Positions 12,539 through 24,862 of a stretch of DNA of 64,000 nt are shown piece after piece (position 1 is the stretch's first letter; each line of letters opens with the position of its first letter). The stretch comes from Halapricum desulfuricans (GTDB lineage: Archaea > Halobacteriota > Halobacteria > Halobacteriales > Haloarculaceae). The stretch spans positions 248,001 to 312,000 of the forward strand of contig NZ_CP064788.1 of NCBI RefSeq assembly GCF_017094525.1. Direction: 5' to 3'. The translations under genes were made by a program, and so were the position numbers. The notes under the pieces were generated by a model. The model was given only the letters and a program-made list of their open reading frames with translations, was not told the origin of the DNA and searched no databases.

Positions 12539-13675
12539 ATGTCCGACGACCTCAAGAAGGGGCTCGAAGGCGTCCTCGTCGCCGAGTCGGAACTCAGTTA
12601 CATCGACGGCGACGAGGGGCGGCTCGTCTATCGCGGTTACGAGATCGGGGATCTGGCAGAGCGGGCCAGTTTCGAGGAAGCGCTCTACCTGCTCTGGCAC
12701 GGAGAGTTGCCGACGGCGTCGGAGCTTTCGACGTTCGAGGAAGGACTGGCCGCGAGCAGGACGATCGACGAGGACGTCCTCGAGACGGTGCGGCGGCTGG
12801 CCGAGGCCGACGCGAACCCGATGGCGGCGCTTCGAACGGCGACGTCGATGCTGTCGGCTTACGACGAGGAGGACGGCGAGCCCGGAACGCGAGAAGAGGA
12901 CCTGGCGAAAGGCCGGCGGATCACCGCCAAGATGCCGACGATCGTGGCGGCGTTCAAGCGGATGCGAGACGGCGACGACCCGGTCGCGCCCCGGGAAGAC
13001 CTCGATCACGCCGCGAACTTCCTGTATATGCTCAACGGCGAGGTCCCCGACGACAAACTCGCCGAGATCTTCGATATGGCGCTGGTCATCCACGCTGATC
13101 ACGGGATCAACGCCTCGACGTTCGCCGCGATGGTCACCGCCTCGACGATGTCGGACATCTACAGCGCGGTCACGAGCGCGATCGGGACGCTGAAAGGCGG
13201 GCTCCACGGCGGCGCGAACCAGAACGTCATGGCGATGCTCAAGGAGATCGACGAGAGCGAACTGAGCGTCGTCGAGTGGACGCGCAACGCGCTGGAGGAC
13301 GGCAAGCGGATCCCCGGATTCGGACACCGGGTCTACGACGTAAAGGACCCGCGCGCGGCGATTCTGGGCGACCAGTCGCGGGCGCTGGGCAACGCCTCGG
13401 GAGAACTCAAGTGGTTCTCCTACAGCCAGGTCATCGAGGAGTTCATGGATAAAGAGACAGGCATCGCTCCCAACGTCGATTTCTACTCGGCCTCGACGTA
13501 CTACCAGATGGGGATCCCGATCGATCTGTTCACGCCGATCTTCGCGCTGAGCCGGGTCGGCGGCTGGATCGCTCACGTGCTGGAGTATCAGGCGGACAAC
13601 CGACTCATCCGCCCGCGGTCGCGATACGTCGGCCCGACCGATCAGGCGTTCGTTCCGATCGACCAGCGGGAGTGA
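12539..13675 (+). CDS. gltA: Citrate synthase
   Basis: A 378-residue type I archaeal/Gram-positive-size citrate synthase condensing oxaloacetate with acetyl-CoA in the TCA cycle. Active-site elements are His in GGLHGGANQNVM, His in IPGFGHRVYD and Asp in APNVDFYSA. ATG 12539 follows TACAGT and gives the family N-terminus (SDDLKKGLEGVLVAESELSYIDG). Monocistronic; divergent from the histidine kinase. Confidence 0.96.
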   Translation: MSDDLKKGLEGVLVAESELSYIDGDEGRLVYRGYEIGDLAERASFEEALYLLWHGELPTASELSTFEEGLAASRTIDEDVLETVRRLAEADANPMAALRTATSMLSAYDEEDGEPGTREEDLAKGRRITAKMPTIVAAFKRMRDGDDPVAPREDLDHAANFLYMLNGEVPDDKLAEIFDMALVIHADHGINASTFAAMVTASTMSDIYSAVTSAIGTLKGGLHGGANQNVMAMLKEIDESELSVVEWTRNALEDGKRIPGFGHRVYDVKDPRAAILGDQSRALGNASGELKWFSYSQVIEEFMDKETGIAPNVDFYSASTYYQMGIPIDLFTPIFALSRVGGWIAHVLEYQADNRLIRPRSRYVGPTDQAFVPIDQRE

Positions 13676-13788
13676 CTGCGTGGTCGGGCCGTTCGTGGCG
13701 TTCTGACCGGCGACAGGGACATCCGAGCAAGGTTCGGAAATCGCCGGTGACGAGAGATTTTTCCGCGGTGACTCCCTTTCGAGGAGTA

Positions 13789-14457
13789 ATGCCGCCGGAG
13801 GGGCCAGCACCGCCAGCCGATCGTGAGTCGCCAGTCGGACAGCCGGTCATCAGAGGCGATCCGGCGCTCACCGGACAGCAACCGGGCGAAGCCGTACAGT
13901 TCGATCCCGCCGATCCGGACAGTGTCGCCGAAGCGGCCGAGACAGTCGCGGCGTTCGCCGACAACACGGCCGGGGACGCGGACAACGTCTACATGTTGCG
14001 GGGTGCGGCCGCCTGTGCGGCGCTGGTCCGCGGCGAGGGGTCCTACAAAGCCGCGGCCGAGCGTGCCGGTGACGAAGCGACGGTCGCGTTCATCCGCAAG
14101 TGGTCGCGGGTCCACGATCTCCCGGAGGCGATCCGCCGCCACGTCGCTCGCGGCGATATCGCGCCCACGGCGGCCAAGCACATCGCCCGGGTGTCCGGCA
14201 CGGCGCGCTACTTGCTCGCCTGGGCCGCCCTGGATCACGATCTGACCGTCCGGGAGATTCGGTCGATCGCCAGCCGGATCAACGACGGCGAGGAGGTCTC
14301 GCAGGCGCTCGCCGCCGAGACGGGCGCGCGACTCGGACAACTGACGATCGATCTACCGATCGACGCGTATCTGTGTCTCCGCCGGCAGGCGTCGCTGTCG
14401 AACGCCGAGCCGGGGGCGTTTCTGGCCGAAGATATCGAGCCCGACGACCAATCGTAA
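13789..14457 (+). CDS. ParB-like HTH protein (DUF7119-type)
   Basis: A 222-residue protein with a central helical region SYKAAAERAGDEATVAFIRKWSR followed by PEAIRRHVARGDIAPTAAKHIARV, which has the layout of the helix-turn-helix in ParB/KorB-type proteins (IAPTAAKHIA is close to ParB-like motifs). I believe this is the haloarchaeal family DUF7119. A DNA-binding role is inferred. ATG 13789 follows GGAGTA. It lies just upstream of tRNA-Lys on the same strand. Confidence 0.7.
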   Translation: MPPEGPAPPADRESPVGQPVIRGDPALTGQQPGEAVQFDPADPDSVAEAAETVAAFADNTAGDADNVYMLRGAAACAALVRGEGSYKAAAERAGDEATVAFIRKWSRVHDLPEAIRRHVARGDIAPTAAKHIARVSGTARYLLAWAALDHDLTVREIRSIASRINDGEEVSQALAAETGARLGQLTIDLPIDAYLCLRRQASLSNAEPGAFLAEDIEPDDQS

Positions 14458-14491: not shown

Positions 14492-14565
<74 letters not shown>

Positions 14566-14670
14566 TAGCATTCTGCTGCGGGCAATCCGCGAGCAGCGAA
14601 TGCGCTACGATGAGAATTGAATCAGGGAGTGGGAGGTGAGCGAGTAGCACGAGCGAACGGGAACGACCGT

Positions 14671-14692
14671 GGTTCAATTCCCATCCGGCCCG
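14671..14692 (+). repeat. tRNA-Lys 3'-end duplicate (att-like copy 2)
   Basis: This is a 22-base exact copy of positions 14544-14565 (T-arm, acceptor 3' strand and discriminator of tRNA-Lys). It cannot form a tRNA by itself. It is best explained as an attachment-site scar left by a tRNA-targeting integrase. Confidence 0.8.
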
Positions 14693-14789
14693 CTATTGCG
14701 ACGAACGGACGTGAGGAGCTATGCGGCTAAGGAATTGAGCCCTGGAAGTCACAGCCCGCACAGCGAAGCGAGCAGGAATGTCTTCCTCT

Positions 14790-14811
14790 GGTTCAATTCC
14801 CATCCGGCCCG
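14790..14811 (+). repeat. tRNA-Lys 3'-end duplicate (att-like copy 3)
   Basis: A second exact 22-base copy, 119 bases past copy 2. Read on the minus strand it supplies the final codons (GPDGN) and the TGA stop of rnp4. The stretches between the three copies are also loosely alike (both contain GAATTGA and CGAGC-type elements). Confidence 0.85.
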
Positions 14812-15095
14812 CTGTACCGATATCTCGCCTGTGCGCCACAGCTACAGGTAACGACGACGTGACCTTCTCGCGTCCGGACGCGAGCGTTACGGCCGGGCAA
14901 GAGGTAGGCGTCGCAGGCGTCGCAGGTGAATCGGTCGAAGTCCGCCGGCAGCGACAGGCGGTTGCGCTCGGCGATCCGGCGGGCGCGGCGGACGTATTCG
15001 CGAGCTCGATCCTGCTCGTCGCCACGGGCGGCCTGTTTGGCCCGCTCGTGGAGGATATCGATCCGCTCGCGGGCGATCTGCTGGTCGCTGGCCAT
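14793..15095 (-). CDS. rnp4: Ribonuclease P protein component 4
   Basis: A 100-residue Rpp21/Rpr2 homologue, part of archaeal RNase P, which trims the 5' ends of tRNAs. An N-terminal helical region (QQIARERIDILHERA, then RAREYVRRARRIAERNRL) is followed by a zinc ribbon made of CDACDAYLLPGRNARVRTR and CSCG. The last five residues and the stop codon come from a copy of the tRNA-Lys 3' end, so the native C-terminus was probably replaced. The zinc site lies upstream of this junction and is intact, so the protein is likely still functional. Confidence 0.9.
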   Translation of the reverse strand: MASDQQIARERIDILHERAKQAARGDEQDRAREYVRRARRIAERNRLSLPADFDRFTCDACDAYLLPGRNARVRTREGHVVVTCSCGAQARYRYSGPDGN

Positions 15096-24787: not shown

Positions 24788-24862
24788 TGGGCCCTGCCGG
24801 ATTTGAACCAGCGCTCAATCGGTTATGAGCCGATCGCTTTAACCAGACTAAGCTAAGGGCCC
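24788..24862 (-). tRNA. tRNA with anticodon CAT (probably tRNA-Ile2, else elongator Met)
   Basis: Cloverleaf with acceptor GGGCCCT/AGGGCCC, discriminator A, D-arm AGCTTAGTCTGGTTAAAGC, anticodon stem ATCGG/CCGAT around CTCATAA, and T-arm CTGGTTCAAATCCGG. The GGGCCC acceptor fits the haloarchaeal tRNA-Ile whose C34 is modified to agmatidine, but this cannot be separated from tRNA-Met with certainty by eye. Confidence 0.85.

Follow-up and report, generated by a model that had tools for sequence, protein, structure and literature searches.

A tRNA-Lys-derived end of a haloarchaeal rnp4 gene, probably acquired by chromosomal rearrangement, and the tRNA-tail family to which the repeat belongs

The stretch of DNA described here (the window; 64,000 nucleotides, G000:C1:248001-312000) comes from the 2.89-Mb chromosome of Halapricum desulfuricans (G000) and contains an intact tRNA-Lys gene followed by two short non-coding units and, facing them, rnp4, the gene for RNase P protein component 4. 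Immediately 5' of the tRNA gene lies a DUF7119 ORF (window positions 13672-14457, plus strand) with a weak ParB-HTH match, and an ORF of the same kind occupies this place in the congener G002. The features needed for the following discussion are listed below in window coordinates; R1 denotes a covariance model of the tail unit that was also used for the distribution searches.

14492-14565, plus strand: intact tRNA-Lys gene, anticodon TTT (ARAGORN; Rfam RF00005)
14566-14692, plus strand: tail unit 1, 127 bp, comprising hairpin 1, an inverted T-arm copy, hairpin 2 (part decayed) and a copy of the tRNA-Lys 3' end
14611-14624, plus strand: inverted T-arm segment of tail unit 1, TGAGAATTGAATCA
14671-14692, plus strand: copy 2, an exact 22-nt copy of the tRNA-Lys T-arm/acceptor 3' strand
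14693-14811, plus strand: tail unit 2, 119 bp, complete, its right edge adjoining rnp4
14727-14804, plus strand: hairpin 2 of tail unit 2, with the inverted T-arm and copy 3 paired around an inner stem (R1, 70.1 bits, E = 1e-15)
14729-14742, plus strand: inverted T-arm segment of tail unit 2, AAGGAATTGAGCCC
14790-14811, plus strand: copy 3 of the tRNA-Lys 3' end, which reads GPDGN-TGA on the minus strand
14793-14813, minus strand: rnp4 end read as grafted, codons S G P D G N plus stop (19 nt of tRNA copy and a 2-nt linker, CT)
14813-14814, no strand: junction J1 between the tRNA-Lys tail and rnp4, after the Tyr94 codon TAC, which ends at 14814
14814-15095, minus strand: native rnp4, codons 1-94, RNase P protein component 4 of the Rpr2/Rpp21 family (PF04032, dN/dS)
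G000:C1, ~713.3 kb, outside the window: junction J2 between purH and yhbY, probably the reciprocal one

As an open reading frame, rnp4 spans 14793-15095 on the minus strand and encodes 100 amino acids, the C-terminus being CSCGAQARYRYSGPDGN followed by the stop. The product matches Pfam Rpr2 (PF04032) over the whole profile (positions 1-90 of 90; E = 6.7e-15) and keeps the conserved cysteine pairs (FTCDACD, TCSCG), which places it in this family; the match to the NCBIfam model 'ribonuclease P protein component 4' is weak and falls under the curated cut-off.

The end of this gene is unusual in its origin. A 22-mer, GGTTCAATTCCCATCCGGCCCG, occurs in three exact copies, at 14544-14565 (within tRNA-Lys), 14671-14692 and 14790-14811, while shuffled windows contained none and none is expected by chance. 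On the minus strand, the codons for GPDGN and the TGA stop (14810-14793) fall entirely within the reverse complement of the third copy, and the preceding Ser codon AGC (14813-14811) is made of the linker CT and the first base of that copy, so that the full C-terminus reads ARYRY-SGPDGN-stop. The initial annotation, which held that the C-terminus and stop codon of rnp4 consist of tRNA-Lys sequence, was thus right for GPDGN-TGA; it extended the interval over 14790-14830, of which 14814-14830 is native rnp4.

The native end can be read from relatives. Rnp4 was located in 55 of 59 relatives, and about 100 homologue C-termini were read out, most of which stop 0-4 residues past (R)Y(P/R)Y; in the alignment, which the initial annotation had proposed as a check, identity ends after Tyr94. 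The congeners G002, G003 and G005 end in ARYRYR, ARYRYD and ARYRYD, respectively, each followed directly by the stop. The same annotation had allowed that homologues from genomes without the repeat might share a GPDGN-like ending, and none of the ~100 C-termini is GPDGN. A stop soon after ARY(P/R)Y is usual without being strictly defining, and it is departed from here, with six additional tRNA-derived residues in G000 and three in G001, the nearest relative. In G001 the protein ends ARYRY-GGN-stop, the copy having a 9-bp in-frame deletion in its acceptor part, and the TGA of the T-loop is used again.

Gene order breaks at the same point. In G002, G003 and G005 the ancestral order rnp4-yhbY is kept, with mscS after yhbY, and in 82 of 110 haloarchaeal loci rnp4 has yhbY downstream at a distance of 400 bp at most, though not in G000 or G001, the only two genomes in which rnp4 faces the tRNA-Lys tail. 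In both of these, yhbY now follows purH and is preceded by GGC(T/G)AC-TGA-CCGGACGAAG, a remnant resembling the native rnp4 end of G005 (GAC-TGA-CATCCCGGACCGAAG). This remnant is short (GACTGACCGG in G001 and TACTGACCGG in G000); it was recognized by position and similarity, and its register in the multiple alignment is imperfect. An adjacency of purH and yhbY was not seen in the outgroup congeners compared. In G005 and G002, purH lies ~2-2.5 kb from tRNA-Lys and faces it, and in G003 it is far away. The 3' end of purH in G005 (L258, 1660-1860) also carries several degenerate tandem copies of the gene's own last codons and stop (CCGACATGACTGAGCG-like), as it does in G001 (L042), an arrangement that resembles the tails, behind a protein gene instead of a tRNA.

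These observations bear on whether GPDGN-stop could simply be the ancestral end of Rnp4, matching tRNA-Lys by chance with no rearrangement having taken place. A few haloarchaeal homologues do have longer tails (e.g., RRPDSDDAV in L016, and also L176), yet this reading has to account for an exact 22-nt tRNA copy of a kind that never arose in shuffled sequence, for congener proteins that stop at most one residue past ARYRY, for the lack of GPDGN in any homologue read out, and for a synteny break at exactly that point with a remnant of the native end in front of yhbY; we regard it as exceedingly improbable. Ectopic insertion of a tail unit into the 3' end of rnp4, with the chromosome otherwise unrearranged, fares little better and is very improbable. 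The junction does lie within 2 bp of the unit boundary, but the whole neighborhood is altered, the junction separating tRNA-Lys, DUF7119 and citrate synthase from the rnp4/glycosyltransferase block; yhbY-mscS stands behind purH with a native-end-like remnant; and nearly all model matches in the sampled genomes stand behind a tRNA 3' end or an att copy of one.

The preferred reading is a two-break rearrangement that took place before G000 and G001 diverged and is most readily understood as one inversion, by which purH/tRNA-Lys and yhbY/rnp4 became purH/yhbY and tRNA-Lys/rnp4. Such an inversion would have brought the tRNA-Lys(TTT) tail with its end against rnp4, right after codon 94, and the 3' region of purH against yhbY. 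On the rnp4 side the break lies between Tyr94 (TAC) and the last codon, and on the tail side 2 bp past the right edge of the unit (14811); the sequences suggest a microhomology of at most 1 bp at the junctions. The gene would thereby have lost its last codon (Asp) and its stop, and would have taken a new end from the antisense strand of the tail's tRNA copy, S-GPDGN-TGA in G000 and GGN-TGA in G001, with the TGA supplied by the antisense T-loop. The purH/yhbY junction is likely the reciprocal half of the break, retaining the native GAC-TGA. Since the congeners vary in what lies between purH and tRNA-Lys (G005 has a uvrC-like ORF there, G002 has other genes) and purH is distant in G003, the ancestral sequence at the first break is not fixed exactly and additional rearrangements have taken place. 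Misassembly of the junction is unlikely because G001 has it too. The initial annotation had inferred an insertion or recombination event that cut off the native end and let tRNA sequence cap it; the recombination half of this proposal agrees with the congener ends and the reciprocal half before yhbY, and the insertion half gives way to the two-break rearrangement.

What was exchanged is small. The 94 native codons give a dN/dS of 0.16 against G001 and 0.13 against G002, so the core is under purifying selection and the gene appears to be still functional. The conserved domain does not include the six added residues, whose functional effect is probably small. To speak of an essential gene repaired, as had been done, is an overstatement, given that the exchange concerned no more than the stop and a single codon that is poorly conserved; likewise, that the RNase P complex processes this very tRNA-Lys is, as far as the data go, a coincidence. 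The case suggests that rearrangement at a tRNA-flanking repeat can swap the stop codon of a conserved gene without loss of function, and it comes with a probable reciprocal junction.

The repeat itself leads beyond this locus. Blastn of the tail against its own genome returned matches beside tRNA-Lys(CTT), Ser, Arg, Leu, Phe and Gly, and a survey of tRNA flanks with automatic extraction in G000, G001, G002 and G005 yielded 67 complete units behind many isoacceptors. A single att scar was therefore rejected: the tail sequence recurs at other tRNA loci, and the repeat, which had been taken for the scar of one element, is a unit of a class-wide tRNA-tail family. That rnp4 was end-capped with tRNA-derived sequence through rearrangement, and that the repeat is one unit of this family, we conclude with considerable confidence, which does not extend to the way in which the units move.

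The units are non-coding, are placed exactly behind tRNA genes, and have a median length of 120 bp (range 100-164, n = 67). Their order is constant: hairpin 1, an inverted copy of the T-arm of their own tRNA, hairpin 2, and a copy of the 3' end of that tRNA, running from (G)GTTC to the discriminator base. Tandem arrays reach three units in the four congeners and five in G087, where the block orders of two tRNA-Gly arrays (L254, L255), A B A' B' C and A B A, suggest that blocks of several units were duplicated. The inverted T-arm fits its own tRNA best (10.41 of 14 positions versus 9.31 ± 0.25; 0 of 5000 permutations) and tracks the T-loop variants TTCGAAT, TTCAATT and TTCAACT. Within the window, tail unit 1 matches R1 at 14609-14685 with 24.8 bits, and a decayed unit with the inverted T-arm GGAGGATCCGAACC lies downstream of tRNA-Met (24788-24862, minus strand).

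Hairpin 2 folds much better than its shuffles (z from -3.8 to -6.9; for tail unit 2, -30.1 kcal/mol and z = -3.76). Across 36 units, 93% of cells are paired and double-sided changes occur at 10 of 16 pairs (0 of 500 shuffles), and sliding one strand by a single column brings the pairing down to about half. Part of the covariation in the outer stem follows tRNA identity, because this stem is formed by the T-arm and the inverted T-arm; the inner stem has double changes at all six of its six pairs, independent of tRNA identity. At the tip of the hairpin there is in most cases a GNA triloop, frequently GCGAAGC. GCGAAGC is a very stable DNA mini-hairpin, and as a pointer to a single-stranded DNA form it amounts to a hint, not evidence. 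When Rfam covariance models were run on eight tail loci, only sub-threshold matches were returned besides the tRNAs.

The family is spread throughout the haloarchaea. R1 matched 142 of the 145 Halobacteria genomes and had no match in 122 genomes from other parts of the phylum; plasmid matches outside the haloarchaea were short, partial and confined to hairpin 2, and were set aside. In three genomes of other families, 87 of 95 matches share the strand of a tRNA gene and lie 24-537 bp downstream of it; 21-22 of the 41-44 tRNA genes per genome, about half, have at least one unit. Several of the remaining matches follow att-type copies of tRNA 3' ends near integrase-like genes.

Orthologous sites differ among close species. 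Val-GAC carries a unit in G000 and none in G001, G002 or G005; at Arg-CCG the site of G005 is empty, and those of G002 and G000 are filled; and G001 has one extra, precise unit at Ser-TGA and tandem duplications at Thr-TGT and Val-TAC. Hairpin 2 types are shared by different tRNAs (up to 94% identity), and hairpin 1 types sort separately. These differences between orthologous sites, together with hairpin types shared across tRNAs, argue for movement or exchange of units among tRNA loci. Units are probably also lost precisely, through recombination between the 22-nt repeats, and such loss could leave empty sites.

Other elements are found at or near the tails. At eight loci (L002, L005, L006, L044, L061, L067, L070 and L087), a MITE-like element of ~110 bp, its ends resembling TGATAGTGGTTGCTGTAA / TTACAGCAACCACTATCA, lies beside tRNA tails, and a TnpB-type (IS1341/IS605) element ends inside hairpin 2 of a tail unit at G129:C1:1738200-1738900 (L252), so that tails also serve as targets. 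In G000, tRNA-Glu(CTC) (G000:C1:2014945-2015019; L074) has no tail, and a 3'-end copy with a tail unit lies ~62 kb off (L005, G000:C1:2075797-2078950), suggesting a ~62-kb integrated element between the two. At G000:C1:2776600-2777400 (L244), two tail units stand behind a tRNA-Leu 3' half that has no intact tRNA with it, and a further integrated element probably has its far att site here.

As to how the units arise and spread, our ranking places a tyrosine recombinase first, followed by an HUH/IS200-605-like route, an RNA trailer function and leftover att scars, none of them demonstrated. Units would move through site-specific recombination for which the tRNA 3' end is the target and in which a tRNA-targeting recombinase acting in trans most likely helps; that this is a tyrosine recombinase is a tentative proposal, ranked first because the repeated segment matches reported att cores. 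The match of the inverted T-arm to its tRNA would be kept by quasi-palindrome correction or by selection. Alternatively, the units could travel as folded single-stranded DNA by means of an IS200/IS605-like (HUH) transposase in trans, the inverted T-arm serving as extended guide pairing with the cleavage region. The frequent GCGAAGC tip and the ability of the inverted T-arm to pair both with the tRNA T-arm and with its copy fit such a route, as do the two near-terminal hairpins, which resemble Haloquadratum PATE elements (PMC3119063); but insertion without target duplication is a trait of IS200-IS605 elements, and the 20-22-nt tRNA 3' end that flanks each unit argues against it, as does the lack of any enzyme linked to the units, making this route unlikely.

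It is equally doubtful that the units serve the tRNA transcript as functional RNA domains (3' trailers, terminators or processing regulators) maintained by selection and not mobile DNA. Conserved hairpins with compensatory changes, a constant position downstream on the tRNA sense strand and a class-wide occurrence would all be expected of such domains, but presence and absence vary at orthologous tRNAs of close species, arrays reach five units, many units are decayed, and about half of the tRNA genes have no detectable unit. The units might also be att scars left by repeated integration and excision of tRNA-targeting plasmids or viruses through tyrosine integrases, given that the copy has the extent of reported att cores, (G)GTTC to discriminator, and that integrated elements are present at the same tRNAs. 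The layout of hairpin 1, inverted T-arm and hairpin 2 is nevertheless kept across tRNA types and families, and random deletion scars would not share it; moreover, the attP region next to the XerCD gene of HSTV-2 has the tRNA-Leu half only, the inverted T-arm and hairpin 2 being absent from this one virus type. We consider such scars an improbable source. Viral attP was also rejected as the source of units, the HSTV-2 region having no hairpins, and tRNA-primed reverse transcription was set aside, as the inverted segment is the T-arm and not the acceptor end, unlike a primer-binding site.

Taken together, we tentatively propose that haloarchaea carry a class-wide, undescribed miniature element that may insert site-specifically behind virtually any tRNA and make or keep an inverted host T-arm, adapting to its target; it may restructure tRNA flanks, act as a chromosome breakpoint, and have given at least one conserved gene, rnp4, a new end. 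With about half of the tRNA genes in the sampled genomes and nearly all haloarchaea concerned, the tail family is a more important result than the rnp4 end, and it opens questions that can be put to the test: by what means such small non-coding units spread, whether they should be seen as DNA parasites or as RNA trailers, and why tRNA 3' ends are hot spots of rearrangement.

Compared with other members of its family (Rpr2/Rpp21, PF04032), the Rnp4 described here has the whole domain and the zinc-ribbon cysteine pairs and is native up to codon 94, whereas its last residue and stop are swapped for a six-residue tRNA-derived tail and the operon with yhbY is split. The literature searched was open-access; it contained att sites, PATEs and SMRs and not the tRNA-tail family, of which an earlier description elsewhere is possible. 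Archaeal att cores at tRNA 3' ends (pNOB8-, SNJ2- and HSTV2-type elements) have been reviewed (PMC8371274), and a Haloquadratum prophage is associated with a 22-nt tRNA duplication (PMC3119063). The tail units share with tyrosine-integrase att sites the direct repeat of the tRNA 3' end, the intact tRNA and the target region (PMC8371274), but differ in being units of 100-164 bp with an inverted T-arm and a conserved two-hairpin layout, in having no integrase gene, and in standing behind many different tRNAs of one genome; the flanking element or remnant with an integrase gene that marks an att scar is missing from them. Nor do they have the terminal inverted repeats and short target duplication of MITEs, the inverted T-arm being internal and the flanking repeat a ~22-nt tRNA 3' end. 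The PATEs and IS605-related elements of Haloquadratum walsbyi are likewise short, non-coding and haloarchaeal, with near-terminal palindromes (PMC3119063), but are not described as tRNA-linked, whereas a tail unit has tRNA sequence at its end and the ~22-nt repeat as its flanks. Finally, the SMR-A elements of Haloquadratum (~110 bp) are similar in size, in being non-coding, in their strong target preference and in a mode of mobilization that is not established (PMC3119063); they differ in having terminal inverted repeats and in targeting PATEs and IS605 elements, whereas tail units sit at tRNA 3' ends.
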